Position numbers and translations under genes: made by a program. A stretch of DNA of 34,438 nt, taken from contig CAMOSH010000017.1 in NCBI GenBank assembly GCA_946624575.1, positions 1 to 34,438 on the forward strand, written 5' to 3'. Shown here in pieces: positions 11,032-31,233 of the stretch (positions are counted from its first letter, which is position 1; the number at the start of each line of letters is the position of its first letter). The notes under the pieces are model-generated. The model made no database searches. It was not told where the DNA came from and worked only from the letters and a program-made list of their open reading frames with translations. This stretch comes from an uncultured Verrucomicrobiota bacterium (GTDB lineage: Bacteria; Verrucomicrobiota; Kiritimatiellia; RFP12; UBA3636).

Positions 11032-12047
11032 CGGCGAGCACCCTCTCCCGCCAGCGCCCGCAGCACGGCTTCAGCGACGCGCTCCGGGGAAACCGACGCC
11101 AGCGCGGCGACGGCTTCCGGGTCGTCTCGCGCGATCGCACGAGAGACGCGCACCCCTTCGGCGCGCACCACTGTCGCGGCGCGTCCCACGGGACCAGTTT
11201 TGTCTGGATCGGTCTTGCCGAACACCGCCACGACCGGAACGCCGGCGGCGGCGGCCAAGTGCATTCCGCCGCTGTCGTTGCAGACCACGCAGTCGCAGAA
11301 GGCGAGCGCGGCGGCGAATTCCGCTAACGAAGTGCGGCCGCAGGCGTCGGGCGCGCCAAGCGCGGAGGCAAGGTCTGCGCACGTGCGCTCCTCGCCGCGG
11401 CCACCAAACACGGCGAAGCGGACGGCGGGCAATTCGCGGCGGATGATTTTCGCGGCGTCGGCGAAACCTGGCCAGCGCTTGGACGGCCCGCGCGCAGCTC
11501 CGGGGACCAGCCCAACCAGCGGGGCGCCAGACGCCGTGGCGGGGGCGATGCCAAGACGTTCCAGAAGATCCGGCGCGGCGGGCGGGGAAAATCCGCAGTC
11601 GCCCCGCAAGTCGCATTCCGGAGAGCCGCACAGAATCTTCGCGTATTCGAGCGCCTGGTGCATTTTCGCCTCCGCCGGGGAAAAGCGCACCGCTTCCCCG
11701 ACGAGGATGCGGCGCGCGACGGAGCGCGCGGTGCCGCGAATGCGGCGGCGCGGGATTCCCGAGAGGCGCACCACGAGCGCCGAACGAATGGAATTGGGCA
11801 GAAGAAACGCCCTGGCGAACCGAAACGAGCGCAGACGGCGCGCCGCCGCGAGCATTTCCCCCTTCGGAAAGGCAACCACCGAATCAACGGAGGACACCGC
11901 GCCCCAGAACGACGCAAGGCCCGGCCGGCAGAAAATGCAGATGGAGGAGTCCGGACGCTCGCGGCGAAGGCGGCGCAGACCTGGCAGGGCCATCACGGCG
12001 TCGCCGAGCCAGTTCGGGGAAACCACAAGAAGGGAATCTTTCGTCAT
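11028..12047 (-). CDS. waaF: Glycosyltransferase family 9, lipopolysaccharide heptosyltransferase II-like
   Basis: SPNWLGDAVMALPGLRRLRRERP, FLLPNSIRSALVVRLSGIPRRRIRG, VCNDSGGMHLAAAAGVPVVAVFGKTDPDKTGP; 4-bp overlap with mfd. Confidence 0.85.
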   Translation of the reverse strand: MTKDSLLVVSPNWLGDAVMALPGLRRLRRERPDSSICIFCRPGLASFWGAVSSVDSVVAFPKGEMLAAARRLRSFRFARAFLLPNSIRSALVVRLSGIPRRRIRGTARSVARRILVGEAVRFSPAEAKMHQALEYAKILCGSPECDLRGDCGFSPPAAPDLLERLGIAPATASGAPLVGLVPGAARGPSKRWPGFADAAKIIRRELPAVRFAVFGGRGEERTCADLASALGAPDACGRTSLAEFAAALAFCDCVVCNDSGGMHLAAAAGVPVVAVFGKTDPDKTGPVGRAATVVRAEGVRVSRAIARDDPEAVAALASVSPERVAEAVLRALAGEGARR

Positions 12048-12706
12048 TGCACGTCGCTCCGTGGCGGACCGTCGGGAAAAGAAACGGCAGGTGGCGGCGG
12101 CAGCTCGGAATTGGCTGGAACCGGTGGATCGTCATCCGCCGCGGGCGGGGCTTCGTCAACCGCGAGCTCCCGAAGTTCGGCCCAGCCGACTGGCGCGGTC
12201 TCCTCGGCCGGCGCCACGCCCAGCGCGACCGGCGGCAGGGCGCGCCTTTCGCGCGCTCGCATCGAAAGCAGTGCCGCCAGCACCGCGGCCACAAGCACAA
12301 TTGCGGCGGCGCGCGACACGCCGCGGTGATGCAACCAGAGCCACCCGGCTACTGGATGCCGCATGGTGAAAACCACGACGCGGGCACGCCTTGGCGAAAA
12401 CCCGCGCGGCGGGACCCCGAGCGCCGGATCATGTGCGCGAAGCCAGTTTTCGATTCCTGCAGCCCCGTGAAGGGGCTGCAGGGCAGGTGGGGAGCCATGC
12501 TGCGGGGTTCCTGCGGCCCCGTGAAGGGGCTGCGGGGCAGGTGGGGAGCCATGCTGCGGGGTTCCTGCGGCCCCGTGAAGGGGCTGCAGGGCAGGTGGGG
12601 AGCCATGCTGCGGGGTTTCTGCGGCCCCGTGAAGGGGCTGCGGGGCAGGTGGGAAGCCATGCTGCGGGCTGGCGGGGAGATTGTTTTTGCCGGGATCCTG
12701 GTTCAT
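12044..12706 (-). CDS. Single-pass membrane protein, putative sigma-factor partner, with N-terminal 18-aa repeats
   Basis: 4-bp overlap with upstream ECF sigma gene; TM segment AAAIVLVAAVLAALLSM; N-terminal (G/T)SPPAxQPLHGAAGTPQH repeats. Confidence 0.6.
   Translation of the reverse strand: MNQDPGKNNLPASPQHGFPPAPQPLHGAAETPQHGSPPALQPLHGAAGTPQHGSPPAPQPLHGAAGTPQHGSPPALQPLHGAAGIENWLRAHDPALGVPPRGFSPRRARVVVFTMRHPVAGWLWLHHRGVSRAAAIVLVAAVLAALLSMRARERRALPPVALGVAPAEETAPVGWAELRELAVDEAPPAADDDPPVPANSELPPPPAVSFPDGPPRSDVQ
12456..12646 (-). repeat. In-frame 54-bp tandem repeat x4 with internal palindrome CCTGCAGCCCC-GTGAA-GGGGCTGCAGG
   Basis: (C)CCCGTGAAGGGG cores at 12463, 12517, 12571, 12625 (54-bp spacing); first copy has perfect 11-bp arms at 12456-12482. 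Confidence 0.97.
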
Positions 12707-13269
12707 CGCAAAGCCCCCTTTCGCGCAAGATGCGCGGCTAGTTTTTTCATCGCTTCGTGCAAAAGATAGCCGACGGTGCCTTCGGGAATGCCCGTGAGGT
12801 CCGACATTTCGCGGTAGGAAAGGCCCTCGTAGACCTTTAGGGCAACAAGCTGGCGCTCGCGCGCGGGCAGAAGGCGCAACGCTTCCGCGGCCTCCGCCGC
12901 GGCGTCCGGAACGCCGCCGTCGCCGCCCTGGCCGGGCGCCGGGGGAACGTGCTCAGAAATGCGCTCGGCGCTGCGTTCGTGCAACGCCGCGCGACGCGCG
13001 GCACCGCGCACCGAATCGACGGACAGATTGTGCACGGTCCGGCGCAGCCAGGCCCGGATGGCGGCGGACGGCTCGAAGGAATCGCCGCGCCATTCGCGGG
13101 AGAGCCTGATGAACGCCTCCTGCACGAGGTCGCGTGCTTCCTCGCGATTTCCCGAAAGGCGCGCGCCTAGGGAGACAAGTTCGCCGCCGTATTCGGCGAC
13201 CAGGCGCTCAAAGGCGTCGCGCCCCCCGCCCGTGTCACCGGAATGCCGTCTGCCGTCGCCGCCGTTCAC
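12703..13269 (-). CDS. ECF-type RNA polymerase sigma factor
   Basis: FERLVAEYGGELVSLGARLSGNREEARDLVQEAFIRL (region 2), LLPARERQLVALKVYEGLSYREMSDLTGIPEGTVGYLLHEAMKKL (region 4); GTG start. Confidence 0.92.
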   Translation of the reverse strand: MNGGDGRRHSGDTGGGRDAFERLVAEYGGELVSLGARLSGNREEARDLVQEAFIRLSREWRGDSFEPSAAIRAWLRRTVHNLSVDSVRGAARRAALHERSAERISEHVPPAPGQGGDGGVPDAAAEAAEALRLLPARERQLVALKVYEGLSYREMSDLTGIPEGTVGYLLHEAMKKLAAHLARKGALR

Positions 13270-13296: not shown

Positions 13297-14559
13297 TCAG
13301 ACCATGAACTCCGCGAACGCGTCGCGAGAACCAGGCTCGACGGAAAACTCCTCCGGATGCACGGCCGCAAAAAGCTGGCGCACGACGATCCGGCCGACGC
13401 CCCTGGAGTCGGAATACGCCGCGACAAGAGCCCTTATGGACGGAAGGTCGCCCTCGACGGGCCGCACGGCCAGCGCGGTGGGACCGGGCACGTTCACGGA
13501 GCGCAGCGTGGCGTCGCCGCCGCGCAGCGCGGTGCGAAGAAACTCGTTGTCGGCGCGGTCGCGCCCAAGCACGACGAGGGTTCCGCCTGGGAAGCGGAAA
13601 TGACGGCCGTGGTTGCAGGCCTCGACAAGCCGCGCGTCGCCAAGTCCCTCGTGTTCCATGAGATTCTTGAGGCGGCGGCAGTAATTCGGCTCCGTGAGCT
13701 TGCATCCACCCGCGGGCGACGGATAGTCGCGTATGCCGTACTTGACGGCCAACGCCATTTGCGGCTTGCGGTTGCGGCCTTGCAGATCAAGCAGGCGCGA
13801 GCGGTCGACAAGTCCTTCGCGCTCCGGTGCGGTGGGGTCCAGGAGCTTTGCGGAAAGCGGGCGCAGCAGGTGGTCGCCGGCGCCGGAGAGGTTGCGCACC
13901 CGGTTGAGAGGGCCGCGCTGCTGCGACATTGGGCGCTGCCCGAGCACTTCGCCAGTGGCCACGAAGTCGAATCCATTCTCCTGCGCGTACTCCCAGGCGC
14001 GCCCGATCATCCGCGCATGGCAGTCGATGCACGGATTCAGGCACGAACCGAAACCTGACGGCGGATCATGCAGCAGCGCGAGAATGTCGGCCGTGAAGTC
14101 TAGCACATGGTGCTTGAAGCCTAGGCGCCGACACGCGCGGGCTGTGCCTTCCGGATTGGCGTAGAACGGAGAGGCGAAGGACACCGCTTCCGCCTCGACG
14201 CCCTGTTCGCGCAGAACGCACAGGCACAGCAGTGAATCCAGCCCGCCCGAGCAAAGGCAGAGGGCGCGGGCGGGGCCTGCGGCCCCGGATCCTGCAGCCA
14301 CGTGAAGGGGCTGCAGGGCAGGTGGGGAACTGGGCTGCTGGGCAGGTGGGGGAGGCGCAGATCCTGCAGCCCCGTGAAGAGGCTGCTGGGCAGGTGGGGA
14401 ACTGGGCTGCTGGGGAGGCGCAGATCCTGCAGCCCCGTGAAGAGGCTGCTGGGCAAGTGGGGAACTGGGCTGCTGGGGAGGCGCAGATCCTGCAGCCACG
14501 TGAAGGGGCTGCGGGTCAGGCTGGGAGCCGGGCGACTGGAAATCTGGTTCTTGGTGCAT
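13297..14559 (-). CDS. PP-loop ATPase, tRNA thiolation (ThiI/MnmA)-like, with repeat-bearing N-terminus
   Basis: ALCLCSGGLDSLLCLCVLREQGVEAEAV (SGGxDS PP-loop), CLNPCIDCHARMI cysteines; ATG at 14559; repeats precede the catalytic domain. Confidence 0.75.
   Translation of the reverse strand: MHQEPDFQSPGSQPDPQPLHVAAGSAPPQQPSSPLAQQPLHGAAGSAPPQQPSSPPAQQPLHGAAGSAPPPPAQQPSSPPALQPLHVAAGSGAAGPARALCLCSGGLDSLLCLCVLREQGVEAEAVSFASPFYANPEGTARACRRLGFKHHVLDFTADILALLHDPPSGFGSCLNPCIDCHARMIGRAWEYAQENGFDFVATGEVLGQRPMSQQRGPLNRVRNLSGAGDHLLRPLSAKLLDPTAPEREGLVDRSRLLDLQGRNRKPQMALAVKYGIRDYPSPAGGCKLTEPNYCRRLKNLMEHEGLGDARLVEACNHGRHFRFPGGTLVVLGRDRADNEFLRTALRGGDATLRSVNVPGPTALAVRPVEGDLPSIRALVAAYSDSRGVGRIVVRQLFAAVHPEEFSVEPGSRDAFAEFMV
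14290..14520 (-). repeat. In-frame 63-72-bp tandem repeat x4 with palindrome GCAGCCCCGTGAAGRGGCTGC
   Basis: GCAGCC(C/A)CGTGAAG(G/A)GGCTGC at 14294, 14366, 14429, 14492 (spacing 72, 63, 63); same core as the repeat at 12456-12646. Confidence 0.96.
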
Positions 14560-29466: not shown

Positions 29467-30778
29467 GTACAGGGCCAAGTCCCGTGACGGCCAGACCCGC
29501 TCGGGAACCGTAGACGCGGCCGATCGCCGCGCCGCGCTGGCCGCCGTCGGCCGACTGGGGCTGCTGCCAATAAGCGTTGCCCCGGCCGGCGCCGCCGGAA
29601 AGGCTGGCGGGCGCGGCGCCGCCAGACACGACAGGCGCGCCGGCGCGAAAACCGGAGGAAGCCCCCGCCGTGACGAACGTTCGGGCGCGAAGCCACGCGG
29701 CGGCGGGCTCCGCCTTGCTCGCCCGGGCGTCATGTCGGCGCGCGAACGGCTGCTTTTCACAAGCGAGCTGGCGGATCTGCTGGAGGGCGGCATGACCCTG
29801 GGCGCCGCGCTTTCCGCGATCGCCCGCCGCGGGGACGGCGCGGAGTCCGGTCCCGAGGCGATCGTCGCGAAACTCCGCGATTCCATCGTCGAGGGATCCA
29901 GCTTTTCCGAAGCCCTCGCCCGCTTTCCAAAGGCTTTTTCGCCAGTGTACGTGAACATGATTCGCGCCGGGGAGGCCTCCGGTGCGCTGACCGACGTGCT
30001 GCGAAGGCTCCTTGCGCACGACGAACGCACTTCCGCGATGCGCTCGAAGATCGTCTCTGCGATGGTGTATCCGGCGATCGTGCTGTGCATGGGCGTTGGC
30101 GTCGCAATATTCGCCATGACGTACATACTGCCGAAATTCCAGACCATTTTCGACCAGATGGGGCCTGACGGACTGCCGCCAATGACAAAGGCACTGCTTG
30201 GCATGAACGACTGGGCCAAGGCCAACTGGATTGTCGTGGTGGCGCTTGCGGCGGGCGGGTTCTTTCTTTTCCGGCGCTGGACCGCGACGGAACGCGGGCG
30301 GCTGGCATGGGACGGCTTCAAGCTGCGCGCCCCGCTCGTGCGCGGCATCGTCGCCAGCGCCGTCTATGCCAATTTCGCCAGCACGCTGGAGTCCCTCATG
30401 CGAAACGGGGTGCCAGTGCTGCGCGCACTGGAACTCACGGCGCAGACAGTCGGCAACGCCGTCGTCGGCGCGGAACTGCTCAATGCGCGCGACCGCGTGA
30501 CGGACGGCACGTCCATATCCGGCCCACTGGAGCAGGGCGGCGTGTTTCCGCCAACGGTAATCGACCTGATTTCCATCGGGGAGCGCACGGGCGACATGCC
30601 GGCAGCGCTTTCCCACGTGGCGAAGCGCTACGAAAGCGAACTTGAAAAGAACATACTGGTGTTCACGACGGCGCTCGAACCTATCATGATATGCGCGGTG
30701 GCCGGAATCATCGGCTTCATCGCAGTCTCGATCATGCAGGCGGTGCTCAGCGTCACCAGCGGCATGAACCTGAACTGA
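29453..30778 (+). CDS. Type II secretion / type IV pilus assembly inner-membrane protein GspF/PilC-like
   Basis: [42 protein letters not shown], two T2SSF-type domains, LSVTSGMN C-terminus. Confidence 0.9.
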   Translation: MAAFEYRAKSRDGQTRSGTVDAADRRAALAAVGRLGLLPISVAPAGAAGKAGGRGAARHDRRAGAKTGGSPRRDERSGAKPRGGGLRLARPGVMSARERLLFTSELADLLEGGMTLGAALSAIARRGDGAESGPEAIVAKLRDSIVEGSSFSEALARFPKAFSPVYVNMIRAGEASGALTDVLRRLLAHDERTSAMRSKIVSAMVYPAIVLCMGVGVAIFAMTYILPKFQTIFDQMGPDGLPPMTKALLGMNDWAKANWIVVVALAAGGFFLFRRWTATERGRLAWDGFKLRAPLVRGIVASAVYANFASTLESLMRNGVPVLRALELTAQTVGNAVVGAELLNARDRVTDGTSISGPLEQGGVFPPTVIDLISIGERTGDMPAALSHVAKRYESELEKNILVFTTALEPIMICAVAGIIGFIAVSIMQAVLSVTSGMNLN

Positions 30779-30811
30779 CCGCCACCCGGCGCAATCGGCA
30801 ATCATGCGTCA

Positions 30812-31233
30812 GCAAGTCCCGCAAACCGCAAATTGAAACCACGGGCGGAATAGTTCCGGCAAAGGGGCGGCGGTCTCCAGACCGCCGGCAAGTCCCGCAA
30901 ACCGCAAATTGAAATCACGGGCGGAATAGTTCCGGTAAAGGGGCGGCGGTCTCCAGACCGCCGGCAAGTCCCGCAAACCGCAAATTGAAACTACGGTCGG
31001 AATAGTTCCGGCAAAGGGGCGGCGGCCTCCTGACCGCCGGCACATCCCGAAAAACCGCAAATTGAAACCACGGGCGGAATACTTCCGGCAAAGGGGCGGC
31101 GGTCTCCAGACCGCCGGCAAGTCTCGCAAACCGCAAATTGAAACCACGGGCGGAATACTTCCGGCAAAGGGGCGGCGGCCTCCTGACCGCCGGCAAGTCC
31201 CGCAAACCGCAAATTGAAACCACGGTCGGAATG
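30812..31233 (+). repeat. Tandem array, 76/77-bp unit, ~5.4 copies, each full unit with a GC hairpin (CGGCGGTC-TCCA-GACCGCCG)
   Basis: AAATTGAAA at 30830, 30906, 30982, 31059, 31135, 31211; unit GCAAACCGCAAATTGAAACCACGGGCGGAATAGTTCCGGCAAAGGGGCGGCGGTCTCCAGACCGCCGGCAAGTCCC. Confidence 0.98.

Follow-up and report, generated by a model that had tools for sequence, protein, structure and literature searches.

The hairpin that recurs in tandem within the window, the 34,438-bp stretch of DNA analysed here from an uncultured Verrucomicrobiota bacterium, is in all likelihood a RAYT-linked, REP/REPIN-like mobile palindrome that was dispersed, probably by the RAYT-like transposase encoded on contig C202 of the same genome, and inserted in genes, where it forms tandem units with lengths divisible by three. 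The case for both its identity and its insertion in frame is strong; the copies and their frames, the absence from orthologs, the stem covariation, the linkage to a RAYT gene and the predicted fold of its product are each shown by the analysis. The features of the window on which the account depends are as follows.

12044..12706, minus strand: host gene 1, a 220-aa membrane protein with array 1 in frame near its N-terminus
12454..12668, plus strand: array 1, four 54-bp units with one hairpin each (GTGAA loop on the plus strand) and the tail GGCAGGTGGGGA
12456..12482, plus strand: hairpin copy 1, with perfect 11-bp arms
12513..12533, plus strand: hairpin copy 2
12564..12590, plus strand: hairpin copy 3
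12621..12641, plus strand: hairpin copy 4
12703..13269, minus strand: ECF sigma factor (Sigma70_r2, Sigma70_r4_2)
13297..14559, minus strand: host gene 2, with an ATP-pyrophosphatase-like domain and NFACT-R_2 (PF18297), array 2 lying in frame in its N-terminal part
14288..14525, plus strand: array 2, four hairpins at spacings of 72, 63 and 63 bp, with loop and tail as in array 1

Array 1 was recovered by TRF as 4.0 copies of a 54-bp unit with 96% matches (12454-12668), lying in frame within the minus-strand ORF at 12044-12706, as the original prediction had described it. Copy 1 (CCTGCAGCCCC-GTGAA-GGGGCTGCAGG) does possess the perfect 11-bp arms attributed to it, and folded as single-strand DNA it yields -18.6 kcal/mol (z = -4.9). 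With up to three mismatches allowed, the 21-mer core occurs nine times in the window, against zero expected from 100 shuffles. Translation of the minus strand gives a repeated SPPA(P/L)QPLHGAAGTPQHG, and the predicted peptides of the array region of gene 1 are SPPAPQPLHGAAGTPQHG. Third-position GC alone favoured a different ORF over gene 1 in this region, and this was overridden by homology.

The start codon of gene 1 overlaps the stop codon of the ECF sigma gene, an arrangement common to the closest relative, UBA6982 (an independent MAG). In eight relatives, orthologs of gene 1 adjoin orthologs of the sigma gene, and the array is present in none of them (0/8); the ortholog of UBA6982 begins MSEREVSDWLLAHDP, whereas gene 1 of the window reads MNQDPGKNNLPA, then the array, then GIENWLRAHDP. 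Between codons 1 and 111 of gene 1 (that is, from codon 2 to codon 110) there is no in-frame ATG, GTG or TTG, and the conserved WLRAHDP stands at codon 88, so any product that keeps this motif must include array 1.

A second array, missed in the original prediction, lies on the opposite side of the sigma gene, between the ATG of gene 2 (14559) and its conserved core ARALCLCSGG. In both arrays the translated strand is the one opposite the GTGAA loop, and the phase is the same (PPAxQPLHGAAG), other phases being used at other sites. The orthologs of gene 2 in eight relatives of the genus and family (69-80% identity) all have a short N-terminus, as in MTQDPATGSAEPG...ARALCLCSGG of relative G003, and the hairpin is found in 0/8. 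Judged from these comparisons, the arrays in genes 1 and 2 are species-specific in-frame insertions, and the ortholog comparison proposed with the original prediction thus came out in its favour.

Di Nocera et al. (2013; PMC3733652) cautioned that N-terminal cases of REPs within genes may be misannotated, and an extragenic 5' REP array with the true gene start downstream has accordingly to be weighed here. Gene 2 carries in-frame GTG codons inside array 2, the last of them 10 codons ahead of the conserved core, which leaves open an alternative start for this gene, and the sister RAYT genes of related genomes have their ATG after the upstream REPs. This reading is nevertheless unlikely, given the stretch of gene 1 devoid of start codons, the overlap of its ATG with the sigma stop codon shared with UBA6982, the copies internal to other genes (an oxidoreductase and the linker between FHA and T2SSE domains) and the unit lengths divisible by three.

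The position of the arrays on either side of one sigma gene, together with the stability of the single-strand hairpins, is what would be expected if the element were a functional regulatory module, either an RNA hairpin or a sigma-binding peptide, selected at the sigma operon. An effect of array 1 on sigma binding or regulation had been proposed originally, and this part of the prediction found no support: array 1 is inserted upstream of the part of gene 1 that is conserved among orthologs (WLxAHDP...LHHR), and gene 1 has no match in Pfam or NCBIfam, hence none to an anti-sigma family. As the element also resides in enzymes and a secretion ATPase unlinked to sigma factors, and as the array occurs in none of the orthologous sigma operons found, a regulatory module is highly improbable.

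The REP-like palindrome itself consists of a 5' GATC, a stem of 9-11 bp with a GTGAA loop, and then GCAGGTGGGGA, its consensus being GATC-(C/T)GC(A/G)G(C/T)CCC-GTGAA-GGG(G/A)C(T/C)GC(G/A)-G-nGCAGGTGGGGA; the 5' foot is mostly GATC, and in the sister families (A/G)ATC or variable. Among 18 distinct copies, 95.7% of cells in the stem are paired and four of the nine pairs show changes on both sides, whereas slid controls, with the partner moved by one to three columns, gave 34-58% paired and zero double changes. Head-to-head doublets account for a minority of copies, one of them (L034:5480-5600) folding into three hairpins closed by its two GATC in a REPIN-like manner (z = -5.8); the arrays of the window are tandem derivatives. 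The unit contains a stop codon in only one of its six frames, namely the TGA of the loop. Unit lengths of the tandem arrays, both of the element and of its sister families, are divisible by three in 9/9 cases (54, 63/72, 69, 81, 66, 39 and 33 bp), for which the probability by chance, with a conservative independent count of seven, is ~5e-4, a value that serves only as a guide since some arrays or parts of them are untranslated and the arrays may share common descent.

Other tandem arrays occur in the window. That at 30812-31232, in an apparent intergenic gap (30778-31218), has a 76-bp unit containing the palindrome GGCGGTCTCCAGACCGCC, similar to one (CCGGGCGGCCCTCCAGGCCGCCCGG) that adjoins another RAYT-like gene on contig C74; not being a multiple of three, the 76-bp unit offers a natural contrast to the coding arrays. 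Two further arrays, with units of 67 bp (1560-1895) and 72 bp (2068-2491), are unrelated in sequence to the hairpin element.

Pattern searching of the genome (a fragmented MAG of 3.95 Mb in 288 contigs), with the match regions then read, identified ~21 copies of the element at seven places, ~18 of them within or ending ORFs. Four copies each lie in genes 1 and 2, three at the start of contig C14 and seven on C202, and further copies were located at C14:35312, C26:6339 and C38:18493. At the five places clearly apart from the transposase locus, the element is invariably in a gene and in frame (5/5). Short core matches on contigs C2, C34, C118 and C9 had no palindrome and were dropped as chance. 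The genome-wide search, like the ortholog comparison, had been put forward with the original prediction, and the outcome named there as refuting did not occur: the peptide is absent from orthologs, the genome has copies at other places, and there is covariation in the stem.

The copy at C14:35312 forms part of a Pro/Ala linker between the FHA and type II/IV secretion ATPase (T2SSE) domains of a protein whose ortholog in G003, at 83% identity, is without PPAPQSLHGAA. That at C38:18493 lies inside a Gfo/Idh oxidoreductase (AQSREGTAAQVGG) and is shared, at the same site, with UBA6982; three other relatives have shorter or unrelated loop sequence there instead. At C26:6339, the copy falls exactly at the point where the lipid A acyltransferase gene of UBA6982 ends (RWVLDPV-stop), and the frame continues into a HAD phosphatase, the gene for which is located elsewhere in relatives. 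An LpxL-type acyltransferase and a HAD phosphatase thus occupy one ORF (L030:2882-4528) with the REP at their junction, the two being separate loci in relatives; this ORF may reflect either a genuine fusion where the genome was rearranged or a join made in assembly. Elsewhere, the element supplies the stop codon. At the left end of C14, a kinase-like ORF ends DHAAP-stop, the TGA being that of the hairpin loop, with two more copies past the stop; the transposase ORF on C202 ends likewise (DRAAP-stop), and a beta-helix-like membrane protein of relative G006 ends VHAAP-stop with a TAA from a GTAAA loop. Another G006 copy of the hairpin (L082:2056-2628) codes for the residues immediately ahead of a prepilin-like GQSLVEVL signal.

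In light of these dispersed copies, an in-gene minisatellite, by which a low-complexity Pro/Ala N-terminus was expanded by slippage and became palindromic by accident, is largely refuted and very unlikely. In its favour, array 1 repeats cleanly in tandem and inserts a peptide rich in Pro and Ala, and slippage probably did raise the copy number after the first insertion. A minisatellite would not, however, explain why one hairpin with its tail recurs both next to a RAYT gene and in genes unrelated to one another, nor account for compensatory stem changes between sites and orthologs without any copy.

The association of the REP-like element with a transposase is found on C202, where a RAYT-like gene lies within the repeats, preceded by four direct copies and one inverted and followed by two. 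The ATG of this ORF overlaps the stop codon of lepA and the frame reads through the array, with no in-frame ATG from the array to the core, in which it differs from the sister RAYT genes. Against NCBIfam NF047646 (REP_Tyr_transpos) the protein scored 35 bits (E=1e-8), and it is termed RAYT-like because this is below the curated equivalog cut-off of 80. The HuH motif (H71-x-H73) and the catalytic Tyr (Y133) are invariant among 14 homologs, 10 of which match Y1_Tnp. An AlphaFold model (pLDDT 91) had as its top PDB match 4er8 (E=4e-7 over 142 columns), the E. coli RAYT (TnpA-REP) with bound REP hairpin. A phmmer search of the PDB returned only a spurious cytochrome, the identity of the protein coming from the profile and fold searches, and a search of 72,556 plasmids gave no match to it. 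In genome G000, nine matches to the RAYT-like protein were noted, with differing flanking palindromes.

When the C-terminal 172 residues of the C202 protein were modelled separately (pLDDT 90), significant matches were almost all to DprA (5mll and 4ljr, E ~3e-6). RAYT-like proteins of the order, to judge from L034:6066-6581 and the sequences in alignment A1, appear to have a C-terminal domain of predicted DprA fold. A full-text search of the literature for DprA and RAYT found no account of such a fusion.

Related genomes harbour sister families that behave like the element of the window. The closest RAYTs (46-50% identity; G008, G003 and G023) have flanking hairpins of their own, with a GCAAG loop. 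In G023 (L166:825-3020), four 66-bp units of a sister hairpin are in frame in a 730-residue protein with no Pfam match, and the RAYT of G003 has three in-frame 39-bp units at its C-terminus. Further in-frame sister hairpins are found in a GH28 protein (L167), in a GH5 cellulase (L181) and in a type I phosphodiesterase (L194), in the last case following its N-terminal segment. The exact REP-plus-tail of the element was found among 85,462 GTDB genomes, a set from which the window's own genome may have been excluded, only in UBA6982 and SRR873598_bin.104 besides. These occurrences bear on whether the arrays are an artefact of MAG assembly. Misassembly of repeat-rich joins is possible in so fragmented a MAG, and contigs C14 and C202 both terminate within arrays, but the oxidoreductase copy recurs in UBA6982 at 96% identity and sister elements are alike in other MAGs, making an artefact extremely unlikely.

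PVC bacteria are known to harbour REP families (PMC3733652), and the present element shares with REP/REPIN and RAYT (TnpA-REP) systems a short palindrome that covaries, doublets in inverted orientation, a HuH/Tyr RAYT gene with copies on either side and a transposase fold matching that of E. coli TnpA-REP. It differs in its foot (GATC as opposed to GT[AG]G or CGTC), its copy number (~21 compared to hundreds, usually >100), its mostly genic rather than predominantly extragenic copies, and a RAYT with a DprA-like C-terminal domain. By way of comparison, only 14 of 1,067 REP 16-mers overlap genes in P. fluorescens (PMC3116915). The low copy number, the foot and the sub-threshold NF047646 score weigh against the REP reading; because it lacks two usual REP features, the GT[AG]G foot and extragenic abundance, the element is placed as REP-like and RAYT-linked, outside the GTAG class.

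That REPs may lie in frame within genes is already known, including in Verrucomicrobia and in tnpA-REP itself. Di Nocera et al. (2013; PMC3733652) described such REPs in several phyla, most of them in Opitutus terrae (Verrucomicrobia), and REP-supplied stop codons. Those intragenic GTAG REPs are likewise in frame in unrelated genes, provide stop codons from their termini and are tolerated in termini and linkers, whereas the present element has another foot and stem, a RAYT in the same arrays, empty orthologous sites and tandem units divisible by three. Quentin et al. (2018; PMC6006769) reported REPs lying in frame inside the tnpA-REP genes of subclass 2.4, in which, as here, the RAYT gene itself contains REPs and the frame is kept; theirs lie between the HuH and Tyr motifs, while on C202 the arrays make up the N-terminus of the ORF and, at its other end, the C-terminus with the stop codon. 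New are the GATC foot, the mostly genic copies, the nine arrays with units divisible by three, the orthologous sites without the insertions and the fusion of a RAYT with a DprA-like domain.

The original prediction had viewed the element as a coding-tolerant palindrome analogous to the Rickettsia palindromic elements, palindromes found inserted in protein genes of unrelated kinds with the frame kept (PMC10969869, PMC3733652). The behaviour it anticipated was borne out, as the element is dispersed, in frame and absent from orthologs; the comparison with RPEs holds only as an analogy, RAYT-linked REP/REPIN elements being closer. RPEs of the RPE-1 type are ~150 bp and hosted by Rickettsia, with no RAYT link reported (PMC10969869, PMC3733652), and they are set apart here by description. 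Because the RAYT gene on C202 sits among copies of this element, a REP-like identity is preferred, and the element is not filed as an RPE despite behaving alike. PARCEL coding palindromic repeats (PMC2996958) also convert palindromic DNA to tandem peptide repeats and have a link to mobile elements, but comprise a 25-residue amphipathic domain conserved as protein, whereas in the present element conservation is of the DNA hairpin and the peptide varies with the frame.

The C202 RAYT, a single-strand transposase, would then be the likely cognate disperser of the hairpin, as its linkage to the repeats suggests, with insertion at N-termini, stop codons and linkers of genes. Insertions would survive because the element is free of stop codons in five of six frames, and tandem amplification would persist in units of three-base multiples, giving a repeated, probably disordered, Pro/Ala-rich peptide. 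The arrays are presumably translated in the cell, and neutral tolerance is taken as the default for the peptide. A broader proposal, tentative and rather doubtful at present, is that of a coding-adapted REP lineage, in which a RAYT that is fused to a DprA-like domain for handling single-strand DNA, and whose own translation runs through the repeats, copies hairpins poor in stop codons, with tandem units of three-base multiples, and time and again gives host proteins new peptide repeats, stop codons and fusions throughout an order of bacteria related to Verrucomicrobia.

REPs are extragenic by name and habit, and this system brings together empty orthologous sites, an array through which translation has to run and a likely cognate transposase. 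The question of how a selfish hairpin turns into protein sequence can now be approached directly, and the element provides a test case for how proteins come by repeated segments, and genes by borrowed stop codons and fusions. The predicted RAYT-DprA fusion would, in addition, connect REP mobilisation with the handling of single-strand DNA.
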